Assembly: GCF_902771435.1 (NCBI RefSeq)
Contig: NZ_CACXXB010000008.1
Span: 1-64,000, forward strand
Direction of reading: 5' to 3'
Source of the DNA: an uncultured Methanobrevibacter sp.
GTDB taxonomy: Archaea; Methanobacteriota; Methanobacteria; Methanobacteriales; Methanobacteriaceae
Length of the DNA stretch: 64,000 nucleotides
In this document: positions 1 to 4,664 of the stretch, in pieces
Layout of the letters: each line of letters begins with the position of its first letter
Numbering within the stretch: the first letter of the stretch is position 1
Notes under the pieces: generated by a model
What the model saw: the letters and a program-made list of their open reading frames with translations, nothing else
Told to the model about the DNA's origin: nothing
The model's database searches: none
Made by a program: the position numbers and the translations under genes

Positions 1-183
1 AGCAGAAACGACACGGCTTTTAATGGTAGACGATGATATTTAATTGAGGACATTAAAAGAAGCGGTGAAACGGCCATTCCGTAGGATGCAAGAGCAAAGT
101 TGCCGATGACAACCTGTAAGAGGCAAGGTAGCACGCTAAGATGAATGCTGTTAAACAGAAGGTGGGTTACTCTTAACAGGCCA
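1..183 (+). ncRNA. rnpB: RNase P RNA, 3' part (5' end lies outside the window)
   Basis: Catalytic RNA of ribonuclease P, which removes 5' leaders from pre-tRNAs. The visible part holds the conserved blocks of the family in order: AGAGCAAA followed by GCCGATG at 91-107, AGATGAATG at 139-147 and the ACAGAA-N3-GG-TTAC block at 155-170, which forms one strand of helix P4 in known RNase P RNAs. The 5' half, including the other P4 strand, is upstream of base 1. The exact 3' end is not certain; it is placed near 183 because the sequence turns AT-rich there. The last part of the gene (161-199) is repeated at 587-625, described separately. Confidence 0.85.
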
Positions 184-199
184 TGAATATTAATTATTT
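161..199 (+). repeat. Direct repeat, copy 1 (3' end of rnpB)
   Basis: These 39 bases, beginning GGTGGGTTACTCTTAACAGG, recur at 587-625 with a single difference (G at 185, A at 611). Copy 1 is the genuine 3' end of the RNase P RNA gene plus about 16 AT-rich bases. Repeats of the 3' end of an RNA gene are a classic sign of site-specific integration, but no integrase gene is visible. Confidence 0.9.
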
Positions 200-208
200 C
201 TTATTTTT

Positions 209-460
209 TCACAATCTTTTAAAAACTTGTAATTTTTGTGATTTATCGTGGTAACTATTTGGATTTTGTAGGCAATCAGAAGTTCTTGCAGGTTCAAATT
301 GACTGCAACTATCCGTTGGATTAGTGTGTCCATTACCTAAATGACAAATAACGCCATCTGCAGCACCTTTTAATTGTATATTAGCTTGCCAATGCACACA
401 ATTAAGACAAACTCTATCTGGGTTCAATTCTGAAATATTAATTCCATCAATTTCATACAT
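209..460 (-). CDS. Small Cys-containing protein of unknown function
   Basis: A protein of about 83 residues, not recognised. It holds a CxxC pair (CLNC) near residue 20 and two further cysteines about 18 and 31 residues later, spaced as in small proteins that bind zinc or an Fe-S cluster; metal binding is inference. The ATG at 460 is preferred over the in-frame GTG at 469 because a GTGGT purine-rich stretch lies at a suitable distance before it. The gene runs against rnpB and is the only gene between the two 39-bp copies of the rnpB 3' end, so it may be cargo or remnant of an inserted segment. No signal peptide or membrane segment is seen. Confidence 0.6.
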   Translation of the reverse strand: MYEIDGINISELNPDRVCLNCVHWQANIQLKGAADGVICHLGNGHTNPTDSCSQFEPARTSDCLQNPNSYHDKSQKLQVFKRL

Positions 461-568
461 TTTAACCACTTTTTCTAATTAATTTTATTTTGCATTAATC
501 CTTTAATATTTTTCTTTTTTAAATTTTAAATGTCAAAAATTGAGGTTGGATTTGCTTATTTTTGATAG

Positions 569-596
569 GTAACCCACCAGATTTTTGGTGGGTTAC
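569..596. repeat. Perfect 10-bp inverted repeat
   Basis: GTAACCCACC (569-578) and GGTGGGTTAC (587-596) are perfect complements separated by 8 bases. The right arm is the start of the second copy of the rnpB 3' end. It is not followed by a T tract in either direction, so it is not an obvious terminator. Confidence 0.8.
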
Positions 597-625
597 TCTT
601 AACAGGCCATAAATATTAATTATTT
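587..625 (+). repeat. Direct repeat, copy 2 (duplicate of rnpB 3' end)
   Basis: A 38-of-39 match to 161-199. The upstream conserved blocks of RNase P RNA are missing here, so this is only a fragment of the gene. Together with copy 1 it brackets a 387-base segment with one small minus-strand gene, the layout expected of attL/attR around a decayed integrated element. Confidence 0.85.
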
Positions 626-706: not shown

Positions 707-1294
707 TTACTTGTTTTCGATAGGGCCAATACTGTTAATAATGCCGTCTATTTCCGGAGTGTATAAACTAGCAGTCTTATTATTTGTGAAAATAAGTAAT
801 TTATTTTCTTTTCCATCTTTGATGAATGTAACTGCTCTGAAATGGTCAACAGGGTCATCGAAAGGTGCTGCAATCTCTGGTGGGAATGTTATTGTTGCGG
901 AATCACTTCCTTCAACTACTGTTGGTGCAGTTAAATTTTTGAGTTTGTCACAATGTGCTGCAAAATCATATACTTTATATCCGTTTATTGTTTTGTTTGT
1001 TACGTTTTCATATCCCGCATCTTTACCATATTCTTTAACAGCGCCAAAGAATTCCTGTTCAAATTTCTCATCTGAGTGTCTTTGTGCGGTAAATGATATA
1101 TTTATGTCTTTTCCGGTTGCAACTATCTTTTTGTCGTCAAGGGAATATGTACCTGGTATTTTAACCTGTGCACCGTCCCCTTCCAGATATTGGTCGCCTG
1201 ATAAAAAATCAAACAATCCTGCACTCACAGCATTTAAACAGCTAAATACTGCCAAAACTACTATAGCCAATGCAATTATTTTTTTGATATCCAT
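707..1294 (-). CDS. Exported protein of unknown function
   Basis: A 195-residue protein with a clear N-terminal signal peptide (Lys-rich start, hydrophobic core at about 6-20, cleavage expected after SAG/AVSA near 25). The mature part is hydrophilic with several N-glycosylation-type Asn-X-Ser/Thr sites, ending in a segment that speaks of a compact beta-rich domain (the 'FTNNKT...IINSIG' type ending seen in small exported proteins of Methanobrevibacter). Start ATG is preceded on the minus strand by GGGAG at good distance. Single gene, transcribed away from the M50 protease. The long + strand reading frame over the same stretch is a shadow: it lacks a ribosome site and this frame has the signal peptide. 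Function unknown. Confidence 0.8.
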   Translation of the reverse strand: MDIKKIIALAIVVLAVFSCLNAVSAGLFDFLSGDQYLEGDGAQVKIPGTYSLDDKKIVATGKDINISFTAQRHSDEKFEQEFFGAVKEYGKDAGYENVTNKTINGYKVYDFAAHCDKLKNLTAPTVVEGSDSATITFPPEIAAPFDDPVDHFRAVTFIKDGKENKLLIFTNNKTASLYTPEIDGIINSIGPIENK

Positions 1295-1603
1295 TTTAAT
1301 CTCCCTTTATTTTTTTAATAAATGTTTTTTTTTCTTTTATTTTGGGCAGTAAGCTATGAAGACAATTTTAACAGTCATGTTAAAAAAATATGTCATTAGC
1401 AAACTAAAATGCCCTATAATCAAGTCTTTATGAATATTTGTATATATAATTTACTAAACTGGAACCAATTGAGGTATAATTTACATAAATGCTGATTTTT
1501 CAATAAATGATTTTGAAATATTATGTAAACTATTCAAAATTTTTTTGCTTGATGCAAGGTTTTAAAGAAAAAAATTTAAATGTGAAACTAGATATTAATA
1601 TTC
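1295..1603. other. Intergenic region between divergent genes
   Basis: About 310 AT-rich bases between the exported protein (minus) and the M50 protease (plus). It should carry both promoters. Candidate TATA stretches such as TATATATAA near 1441-1449 are visible, but none can be assigned firmly. No RNA gene or repeat was recognised. Small open frames here look non-coding. Confidence 0.5.
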
Positions 1604-2245
1604 ATGTTGATATACACAAAGAAAGAACTACGGGATTTAATAATTGCATTTATTGTGCTTACAATCTGTTTTTCAATAGCAACCGCTGGATTTAACACCC
1701 ATAGAATCCTTTCACTTTTGCCTATTATTATTATTGGTGTGGTAATGGGATCTGTATCACATGAGCTCGGACACAAATATATTGCAACTAAATATAGTTG
1801 TGATGCTGAGTTTAAATTGTGGCCTCTTGGATTAGCAATAGCATTTGTTACATCATTTTTCGGTTTTGTATTTGCATCCCCTGGTACAATTCAGATTCAT
1901 CCGGAAAATCGCAGTGATGAAATAAACGGCAGAATTTTAATTGCCGGACCAATGACTAATATGGCACTTGCGTTAGTATTTATAGCTATTGCGGCTTTAA
2001 TATATCCTTTAAGATTTTACTCAAATATTATTAATTTAATATATTTAATTTGTGTTGTCGGATATTCTGTCAATAGCTTTTTAGCGACATTCAACCTGTT
2101 TCCTCTTTACAGCTTAGACGGAACCAAAGTTTTAAAGTGGAGCGCCAAAATTTGGTTTATTGCTATTGCAATTGCAGGAATCATGATGCTGGGGTCTATT
2201 TTTATAGGCGCTGAACACATGATCCAAATACTCATGGGATTGTAA
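1604..2245 (+). CDS. Site-2 protease family (M50) membrane metallopeptidase
   Basis: A 213-residue intramembrane zinc metalloprotease. The HELGH zinc-binding/catalytic motif is at about residues 53-57 at the edge of a membrane segment, and the third zinc ligand motif of the family, N-x-x-P-x-x-x-LDG (NLFPLYSLDG), is near 164-173. Around five to six hydrophobic segments are visible and there is no PDZ or CBS domain, so this is the short, minimal form common in archaea. Natural substrate unknown; the family cleaves membrane-bound regulators or signal-peptide remnants. The ATG at 1604 has no clear Shine-Dalgarno sequence, so a leaderless or weakly initiated message is likely. Confidence 0.85.
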   Translation: MLIYTKKELRDLIIAFIVLTICFSIATAGFNTHRILSLLPIIIIGVVMGSVSHELGHKYIATKYSCDAEFKLWPLGLAIAFVTSFFGFVFASPGTIQIHPENRSDEINGRILIAGPMTNMALALVFIAIAALIYPLRFYSNIINLIYLICVVGYSVNSFLATFNLFPLYSLDGTKVLKWSAKIWFIAIAIAGIMMLGSIFIGAEHMIQILMGL

Positions 2246-2417
2246 ATCACAGATTTTTGTCATATTGTCCAAATGATGCCCTAAATATTATTATTATTTC
2301 AGTTCGTTGTGTTATTGTCCAAATTTCAAAAGATTTAATAAGGACTCCAATAATATAATTATTAGTATTAAATATTTCGACTTGATAGTTGTTTTGTAAT
2401 TAAAAGGAGGTTTGCCA

Positions 2418-2747
2418 ATGAGTGAACTTACATGTGATGATGTTTTGGAATATCAGGATCTTTTAAAATTGGCACCGCTATTCATATTGAAAAGGATGGC
2501 CAGAAAAAGATCCAATTTAGTAAAAAAGTTTGAATCACAAGTTAAAGACTATATTGAAAACATGGATAGTCGTCATCAGGAAAAACTACATATTCTGTTG
2601 AACAGCAATATTGATGATTTGCAGACTTTAATGGATGAGGCTTACAGAAAAACAAATAATAAGCAATTTAAGATATTGGCGGATTCGAAAAATAAAGAAT
2701 TTATCAATATCAATATTGAAGAATTAAAAAAATTAGTTAACTTTTAA
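2418..2747 (+). CDS. Small helical protein of unknown function
   Basis: A 109-residue soluble, charged protein predicted to be almost wholly helical, with Lys/Glu-rich heptad-like stretches in residues 25-75. Not recognised; it looks like a conserved Methanobrevibacter hypothetical. The ATG at 2418 is chosen over the in-frame TTG at 2412 because GGAGG at 2406-2410 sits 7 bases before the ATG but only 1 base before the TTG. Its stop overlaps the stop of the convergent dihydrouridine synthase gene by 4 bases (2744-2747). Confidence 0.7.
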   Translation: MSELTCDDVLEYQDLLKLAPLFILKRMARKRSNLVKKFESQVKDYIENMDSRHQEKLHILLNSNIDDLQTLMDEAYRKTNNKQFKILADSKNKEFININIEELKKLVNF

Positions 2748-3739
2748 TCGTTTTTTCTATGTTGCCTATATGATGTAAGATACTCATCTAATAGGCTGAA
2801 CAATTCTTCTTTAGTGTTTGCTTTAAAAATTCTCGGTTTGATTTCAAAGCTTCCCGGAAGATTTTTCAGATAATAGGCGGCATGACTTCTCATTTCGGGA
2901 ATTGCTACTTCTTCACCTTTAAGGTCAATCAGTAACTCGGCATGTTTTTTTGCCATACTTATTTTTTCTTCGGCGCCCACTCTTTCAGGCTCTTTTCCAT
3001 CTTCCAGATATTCGATGCACTGTTTAACAAGCCAAGGATTTCCCCTGATTGCCCTACCAATCATTATTGCATCGCATCCTGTTTCATCAAGCATTCTTTT
3101 CGCATCGTAACATGTCCAGATATCGCCATTGCCTATAACTGGTATTGAAACTTCTTCTTTTACTTGTTTTATCAGTGACCAATCTGCCGGCGTGTCGTAT
3201 CTGTCTTCTCGGGTACGCGGGTGTACGGTTATTGCTGATGCACCTGCATCCTCAACTATTTTTGCCATTTCAAGTGCATTAATACTGTTTTTACTCCATC
3301 CACTTCTGATTTTCACAGTAACTGGAATTGGCACGGTATCTACAACTGCCCTAACTATTTCTTCTGCCTTTGTAGGATTTTTTAAAAGGGCACTTCCTGC
3401 CTTGCTTTTAACAGCAACTTTTTTTACAGGACATCCCATGTTAATGTCAATAATGTCCGGCTTCATGTTTTCATGAATGAATTTTGAAGCTATTTTAAAG
3501 GATTCTGCTTCCGCTCCAAAAATCTGCTGGGAAATCGGCCGTTCTTCTTCGGTCATGTAAAGCATTTCTTTTGTCTTGTAATTGTCATACATTATGGCTT
3601 TGTCTGAAACCATCTCTGTTTCAATCAGCCCGCAGCCCATGGATTTAACTATCCTTCTGAATGCAGAATCACATATTCCAGCCATTGGGGCCAAAACAAC
3701 CTGGTTATCGATTTTTACATTGCCGATTTTCCATTTCAT
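2744..3739 (-). CDS. tRNA-dihydrouridine synthase (Dus family)
   Basis: FMN- and NADPH-dependent enzyme that reduces uridines in tRNA D-loops to dihydrouridine. The 331 residues fit the family length. Visible: the N-terminal 'LAPMAGICDSAFR' FMN-binding start, the substrate-handling Cys in 'DINMGCPVKKV' near residue 100, 'TVKIRSGW', 'ITVHPRTRED', and 'IPVIGNGDIW' with 'DAIMIGRAIRGNPWLV' for phosphate binding, all in TIM-barrel order. It resembles bacterial DusB/NifR3 more than the eukaryotic forms. Monocistronic, convergent with the small helical gene. Confident in family; which uridine it modifies cannot be said. Confidence 0.9.
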   Translation of the reverse strand: MKWKIGNVKIDNQVVLAPMAGICDSAFRRIVKSMGCGLIETEMVSDKAIMYDNYKTKEMLYMTEEERPISQQIFGAEAESFKIASKFIHENMKPDIIDINMGCPVKKVAVKSKAGSALLKNPTKAEEIVRAVVDTVPIPVTVKIRSGWSKNSINALEMAKIVEDAGASAITVHPRTREDRYDTPADWSLIKQVKEEVSIPVIGNGDIWTCYDAKRMLDETGCDAIMIGRAIRGNPWLVKQCIEYLEDGKEPERVGAEEKISMAKKHAELLIDLKGEEVAIPEMRSHAAYYLKNLPGSFEIKPRIFKANTKEELFSLLDEYLTSYRQHRKND

Positions 3740-3812
3740 AAATACACTTCAATAGATTAAATTAAAAATAGGTTGGTTATTTTTCGAATAAAATAAAAAA
3801 ATGTATGGACTA

Positions 3813-4664
3813 TCATTTAAATAGTCCATCAAACAATCCTTTAACGGAATTTGTATCAACAGTGGTGTTGTTAAACATGCCTGACACTTCTGAAGTGTAG
3901 TTGTTTATGTCTCCTTGCACATTTTGTATTTGCTCAATACTTGTTGCAAGGTTTTCCACATCACTGTTTGTAATGTTAATATTGTTAACAACTGTGTAAT
4001 TATTGATAATATTTACAATAGTTTGGTGATCTGTAACATTTTCTTCTTTTACTGTTTCTTTCACGTCATCAACTAAATCTGATAATTCGTCAGCACTGAC
4101 ATTTGAATTTTCAACAATTTCCGCTTGTGTGTAGATTTCGTTGTTTGCTGCTTCTTTTACAGGTTCTGGAATTTCAACATTTGTAATCTCTTCATAGGAA
4201 TTCATTATTCCTGCAAGGGCTGATTCGCCGGTTGCAGTTATTGGACTTGTTACATAAACATGTCCTGCGGTGATTCCTGCGGATTTCAATGCTGAAATGT
4301 ACATGTCTCCGGTTATTGTGGTAATTTTGGATTTGTCCACACTAACTTCAAGATTGTCATTTTCATTTAAATCAACGAGTGCTGATGAAAATATTTGGTC
4401 TGAACCGTAAGTTTTACCAGTTATTGAAGTTGAAATCTTATTTACTTGATCAGCAGTAATTATTTTTGATTTTATGTTGTGCATGTCAACGTGTGCTTGC
4501 TGTACAAAAAAGTCATCTACAATATTCTTATAATCTGCATTGTGGTGAGTTGTTTCACCATAAGTTATCACTACTTGGTTATCATTGGTTGAAAAGCCTG
4601 CTGGGATAACCATTCCGACTAAGATTATAGATAATATAATCATACCTATCATACTCTTTTGCAT
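3813..4664 (-). CDS. DUF1002 family exported protein
   Basis: A 283-residue secreted protein: signal peptide (hydrophobic core about residues 5-20), then a DUF1002 domain. The hallmark segment 'VTSPITATGESALAGIMNSYE' begins near residue 138 (only its first part is quoted as evidence here: VTSPITATGESALAG). The C-terminal third is Asn/Val-rich and repetitive and looks like an extended wall-spanning or coiled stalk. DUF1002 function is unknown. The gene is divergent from the exported CobN-like chelatase gene, 225 bases apart, so the two may be co-regulated (inference). Confidence 0.8.
   Translation of the reverse strand: MQKSMIGMIILSIILVGMVIPAGFSTNDNQVVITYGETTHHNADYKNIVDDFFVQQAHVDMHNIKSKIITADQVNKISTSITGKTYGSDQIFSSALVDLNENDNLEVSVDKSKITTITGDMYISALKSAGITAGHVYVTSPITATGESALAGIMNSYEEITNVEIPEPVKEAANNEIYTQAEIVENSNVSADELSDLVDDVKETVKEENVTDHQTIVNIINNYTVVNNINITNSDVENLATSIEQIQNVQGDINNYTSEVSGMFNNTTVDTNSVKGLFDGLFK

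Follow-up and report, generated by a model that had tools for sequence, protein, structure and literature searches.

In Methanobrevibacter, the 3' end of the RNase P RNA gene (rnpB) is probably the attachment site (attB) of an integrative element with a tyrosine recombinase and, via that enzyme, a platform for integrase-less cassettes of one gene. One such unit lies directly behind rnpB at the beginning of the DNA analysed here, a stretch of 64,000 nucleotides from an uncultured Methanobrevibacter sp. (genome G000; hereafter the window). The following features are concerned:

1-181, plus strand: 3' part of rnpB, the attachment gene (RF00373; the 5' part is on contig C57)
161-199, plus strand: proximal copy of the direct repeat, RNase P RNA end and A+T-rich trailer
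167-178, plus strand: TTACTCTTAACA, putative strand-exchange zone from the comparison of flanking bases (distal counterpart at 593-604)
167-592, no strand assigned: 426-bp gene cassette, cut at the cores (counterparts in G035, 100% identical, G058 and G015, and a partial one in G014)
209-460 (212-460 from ATG), minus strand: cassette gene for an 83-aa protein with four invariant Cys (ORF, homologues)
542-625, plus strand: att site, consisting of arm, core and trailer (att profile, 75.7 bits)
569-578, plus strand: left arm of the inverted repeat, GTAACCCACC (hairpin z = -3.7 as single-stranded DNA)
587-596, plus strand: right arm of the inverted repeat, GGTGGGTTAC, overlapping the core (hairpin fold)
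587-625, plus strand: distal copy of the direct repeat, presumably the cassette-borne left half and the displaced native rnpB end
707-1294, minus strand: secreted-like protein, the first gene of the flank beyond the cassette (707-4664)
1604-2245, plus strand: M50 peptidase (Pfam)
2418-2747, plus strand: 109-aa protein of the same flank
2744-3739, minus strand: Dus (Pfam)
3813-4664, minus strand: a protein which we take to be DUF1002-like

The 39-nt direct repeat reported in the initial annotation (161-199 and 587-625, 38 of 39 positions identical, spacing 426) is far above chance expectation. With up to three mismatches allowed, its 24-nt core has no third place in the 64 kb beyond the two copies, and it did not occur in any of 100 dinucleotide-preserving shuffles. 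The proximal copy had been taken for the true end of rnpB, and this was borne out by the Rfam model of archaeal RNase P (RF00373), which scored 106 bits over positions 1-181, truncated at the 5' side. Positions 161-181 are the 3' end of rnpB (about 21 nt of RNase P RNA), and the repeat extends about 18 bp further, into the trailer. The remaining part of the gene is located on contig C57, whose final 89 bases correspond to positions 1-89 of the window. The single minus-strand gene of about 83 residues described between the copies was likewise recovered, as an ORF of 83 aa with four Cys. The proximal copy presumably came in with the cassette. The copies differ at a single position (CATG versus CATA), and since the empty site of G018 likewise reads GGCCATAAATATT, this mismatch would fit a distal copy that represents the former native rnpB end, although it does not discriminate.

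A perfect inverted repeat, GTAACCCACC (569-578) and GGTGGGTTAC (587-596), which was absent from the initial annotation, begins ahead of the second repeat copy and extends into it. In about 20 of the 67 Methanobrevibacter genomes, the units end in a common site of about 85 bp, composed of GTAAC-N18-GTTAC, the rnpB 3' end TTACTCTTAACAGGCC and an A+T-rich trailer. Most further core copies are preceded by a shared arm (roughly GTAGTTTTTNNCTATTTTTGATAGGTAACCCAC, a spacer and GTGGNTTACTCTTAACAGGCCATGAATATTAATTATT), and the GTAAC-N18-GTTAC spacing holds even at one G021 site whose palindrome differs. A profile built from cassette arms only gave 51.9 bits at 542-597 in the window, the identical G035 site being part of its training set. 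Among 139 genomes of the family, the exact 16-nt core was confined to Methanobrevibacter, where it lies either in rnpB itself or in the island that follows. The bases to the left of TTACTCTTAACA are specific to the cassette or element (ATGTAGC in the G015 and G049 elements, GTGACC in both LtrA cassettes), and those to its right are rnpB-like. The single-strand hairpin z is about -3.5 to -3.7 at two att sites and -1.0 at the element site. Two-sided changes in the palindrome occur mainly in two inner pairs, and the covariation exceeds that of all but 1 of 500 shuffles; symmetric protein binding could be an alternative explanation for it. Among the viral contigs, one match to the att pattern (L207) falls within an ORF, on a contig that is unrelated, and was discarded as chance. 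The G021 site with the deviating palindrome, GTAACATGG...ATATGTTAC (L173, contig C18, 4081-4145; 18-base spacing retained), is flanked by a pair of very long adhesin-like ORFs; Dus and a 283-aa flank gene at 10.5-12.4 kb assign it to the rnpB island of that genome.

The region behind rnpB was oriented in about 53 genomes of the genus, and contigs with further core copies were added; most of the genomes compared are metagenome bins. Units were defined by cutting the DNA at the cores, and gene families were taken from Pfam. One or more att-ended units were present behind rnpB in about 20 of the 67 Methanobrevibacter genomes. Most of them are 0.4-1.4 kb long and contain one gene or a toxin-antitoxin pair, and no integrase fragment was found in any unit listed as a cassette:

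Cys protein unit, 419-430 bp: G000, G035, G058 and G015
2TM protein unit, 463-464 bp: G038 and G058
MntA-HepT unit, 792-818 bp: G005, G016, G021, G065 and G041, some copies being broken
DUF2115 unit, 760-771 bp: G015 and G023
TfoX-N unit, 586 bp: G060
radical SAM unit, 1140 bp: G060
LtrA unit, 1357-1367 bp: G060 and G028

Arrays behind rnpB hold two to four units, and units shared across species stand at differing positions, as in an integron-like array with one entry site. The order is radical SAM, TfoX-N and LtrA in G060, and a 14.4-kb element, Cys protein, DUF2115 and radical SAM in G015. All att sites found in the arrays have one orientation. The cassette genes occur in both orientations and, therefore, the cassettes probably carry their own promoters. 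The last site had the lowest att-profile score in four of the five multi-unit arrays, a pattern that entry of new units at the rnpB side would produce. Empty sites, with a flank gene 61-142 bp behind rnpB, were found in G001, G018, G026, G031, G032 and G048, and homologues of the genes at 707-4664 of the window sit close behind rnpB in empty genomes. Thus, the single-copy site in relatives that the initial annotation had proposed as a check of insertion does exist, and the opposite outcome, two copies in all relatives, was not seen. In G008, a weak att-like remnant (L086, 15 bits) lies roughly 840 bp downstream of rnpB, with the M50 peptidase gene on one side and Dus on the other; judging by this remnant, native-looking flank genes may be old fixed cassettes. 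Contigs of G036, G037, G053, G010, G033 and G058, as well as the window at position 1, break in rnpB or within about 550 bp of its 3' end, which could reflect mixed cassette content in populations or merely the conservation of this gene.

The third codon positions of cassette genes are 79-95% identical between species, and those of neighbouring genes mostly 45-68%; the gap is smaller in closer pairs (G015 with G000 or G060). The LtrA unit is 93.6% identical versus 73.3% for the upstream DNA, and the 2TM unit 97.1% versus 80.6%. In the sister species G000 and G035 the cassette is identical over 337 of 337 bp against an upstream divergence of 4-5%, an identity with a chance of about 1e-7 if the cassette evolved at the upstream rate. 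The DNA beyond the cassette is unrelated between these two genomes, and in G035 more than 12 kb, partly common to G041 and G056, separate the cassette from the Dus gene. The recurrence of units at different array positions, together with the excess of third-position identity, indicates that the cassettes move horizontally between species.

Larger elements with the same core, which the initial annotation had suggested looking for, were found as well. A 590-aa tyrosine recombinase starts 82 bp behind the rnpB core in G015, G044 and G049; it keeps all of the catalytic residues (R, K, HxxR, H, Y), has a long C-terminal extension and matches Pfam PF00589. Against NCBIfam it matched no integron-only model, and its matches to XerA/XerC-type models were weak and below cut-off. 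The full element (14-15.6 kb) is present in G015 and G049, and its left end alone in G044. It encodes a P4-type primase-helicase, a methyltransferase-like ORF and, at the right end, an MNT-HEPN pair. With its integrase, attL and attR sharing the core with the rnpB 3' end, and empty relatives, it corresponds to an integrative element of an RNA gene; the unit in the window, having no integrase, does not. The left border reads GTGGGTTACTCTTAACAGGCCATGTAAAATTATGTGGGTTACC and the right one GGTAACCCACATGATTTAATGTAGCTTACTCTTAACAGGCCATG, which suggests an attP with inverted arms around the core. The profile from cassette arms only detected the right ends of elements in G004, G015, G049 and G062 (E 2e-8 to 2e-5) and the left arm, inverted, in G015 and G049 (E 3e-5); the cassettes are without this left arm. 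Decayed elements occur in G004 (2.5 kb, with integrase and primase fragments), G062 and G036, and because G004 is a single-contig genome the element cannot be put down to binning. In G062 (L119), the stretch 0-1.8 kb behind rnpB contains a tandem pair of integrase remnants, both of which start immediately after a core copy; the large element seems to have been inserted there twice. A second integrase of the same family (G015:C56:13674-14984, 43% identical, a 598-aa open frame) is present in G015, which has an intact element. Some related integrases of other genera are located near tRNA genes. No relative of the integrase was found in viral contigs, and no close one in most carriers, including the window genome, which has only distant recombinase relatives (about 27-32% identity).

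The mechanism proposed here starts from a cassette circle with one att site (arm GTAACCCAC, spacer, GTGGNTTAC, then TTACTCTTAACAGGCC), which would recombine with rnpB within TTACTCTTAACA. From then on the cassette-borne version of the RNase P RNA end (about 14 nt) and of the trailer would serve as the working end of rnpB, and the old end would be displaced to the far side of the cassette. Repeated insertions adjoining rnpB would give rise to arrays, and recombination between any two att copies might remove units or carry them off, alone or with the element. The tyrosine recombinase of the element would act on the cassettes in trans, and the element would ferry them between species. As far as can be judged from sequence, an element that possesses a recombinase and the same arms at the rnpB site points to such mobilisation in trans and to this enzyme as the one responsible. 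In G015 the element is located directly ahead of the Cys cassette, the layout that ferrying would leave. In many genomes rnpB starts with CATGGCAAGTTAAAG and ends with CTCTTAACAGGCCATG, so the terminal helix of the RNA would have its 3' strand in the part brought by the cassette, and insertion would rebuild rnpB. Covariation of the terminal helix is present in the genus. Helix mismatch was considered as a mark of a foreign end and rejected, as genomes with and without arrays score alike (6.55 versus 6.61 of 7 pairs). The displaced rnpB end of G058 is one case that fits the mismatch idea.

The small units might instead be independent, immobile remnants, left when successive integrase elements at rnpB each shrank to the gene at the right end. 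Genuine remnants of this kind are known in G004, G062 and G036, and MNT-HEPN genes, which close the intact element on its right side, occur on their own in G053. However, equal lengths and two exact ends in distant species are unexpected from independent decay, third-position identity of about 90% over backgrounds of about 55% is left unexplained, and the units listed as cassettes contain no integrase fragment; serial decay is therefore considered unlikely. Homologous recombination appears less likely still. Neighbouring DNA could have been taken up by crossovers in rnpB and behind it with no site-specific enzyme, the similarity of rnpB and att would suffice for crossing over, and rnpB itself constitutes the proximal copy. 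But the DNA just outside the unit is only 73-80% identical or unrelated in species sharing a cassette, so both crossovers would be needed within tens of bases of the core every time, and the conserved palindromic arm shared with the integrase element would have no explanation.

The least probable reading, to which we give very little credence, is that the arrangement arose in assembly, or that the repeat is nothing more than a terminator-like or processed-RNA sequence downstream of rnpB. In its favour, the first 89 bp of the window contig, which opens within rnpB, overlap a second contig, and terminators can be mimicked by a hairpin with T-rich sequence after it. Against this, the two-copy unit of the window recurs mid-contig in G035 with rnpB upstream, the remnant in G004 is on a single contig, and the content behind rnpB varies among genomes, empty sites being common. 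A site-specific platform at rnpB thus remains the preferred reading. The initial annotation regarded the insertion in the window as decayed or non-autonomous; it is indeed an insertion without an integrase, but not a mere remnant, since its cassette family recurs in arrays, in varied order and across species.

The cysteines of the 83-aa protein (18, 21, 39 and 52) are invariant across 18 homologues, and the protein has no match in Pfam, NCBIfam, PHROGs or PADLOC. Its AlphaFold model was not usable (mean pLDDT 37). Homologues with 52-71% identity occur in many species at a conserved chromosomal locus outside the rnpB island (L039-L053), near a gene that is presumably TatD-like, and therefore the cassette gene seems to derive from the chromosome by capture or relocation. 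The 426-bp unit was recently exchanged and is now probably stranded, because no close integrase relative was found in G000. A 2-kb cassette considered in G014 was rejected: the segment resembles G011 DNA at the equivalent place, and its second core is without an arm.

Integrons and dif modules are the main systems in which gene cassettes are known to be captured. If the proposed platform is real, it would be a third version of cassette capture, in gut and rumen methanogens, using an essential ribozyme gene, and it would show a cassette system arising from an ordinary integrative element. It would also give methanogens a route for sharing single genes, toxin-antitoxin pairs included, and an entry point for genetics. 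The trade-off would be that the RNase P RNA has its terminal helix partly exchanged with every cassette that enters. Slightly less than even weight is given to the further, tentative reading of an independent archaeal analogue of integrons, in which rnpB is the dock, ordinary chromosomal genes serve as cassettes, the recombinase of the element acts in trans with the element ferrying them, and the end of RNase P RNA is swapped.

Among known systems, integrons, archaeal integrons and CALINs (PMC9668308) are the gene-cassette systems for comparison. Integrons share with the units described here tandem one-gene units, each with a terminal palindromic recombination site, one primary entry site, exchange across species, frequent stranding without an integrase, and a tyrosine recombinase. 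They differ in that the recombinase here is a large integrase of an integrative element and matched no integron-only model of NCBIfam, that the platform is the rnpB 3' end instead of attI beside intI, and that cassette genes occur in both orientations. The core consensus of attC is GTTRRRY / RYYYAAC; the core here, GTTACTC, lacks R at positions 5 and 6 of that consensus (25 sites). The integrase of integrons is IntI, which has an additional domain, and attC works as a folded single strand. In its presumed working the rnpB platform resembles integron cassette arrays and sets of dif modules, but it is not classed as an integron because its recombinase matches no integron-only model and its core misfits attC.

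Integrative elements and islands at RNA genes (archaeal review PMC8371274, thaumarchaeal elements PMC6563490) likewise have a tyrosine integrase, the 3' end of an RNA gene as attB, a gene rebuilt by the incoming DNA, a displaced fragment at the far end and tandem insertions, but here the target is rnpB and most units are single-gene and integrase-less. RNase P RNA is not mentioned as a target in either the archaeal recombinase review (PMC8371274) or the thaumarchaeal survey (PMC6563490). In the open-access literature, rnpB together with integrase or attB was found only as a source of promoters, and RNase P together with attB, integrase and tmRNA gave nothing, although an earlier description elsewhere is possible. 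The dif modules of Acinetobacter plasmids (PMC13141974) are also small, integrase-less and often of toxin-antitoxin type, bounded by recombinase sites and served by an enzyme encoded elsewhere. Those modules, however, rely on XerCD and dif-like plasmid sites of alternating orientation, whereas the sites described here follow an RNA gene of the chromosome, all point the same way and look like the borders of an integrative element.
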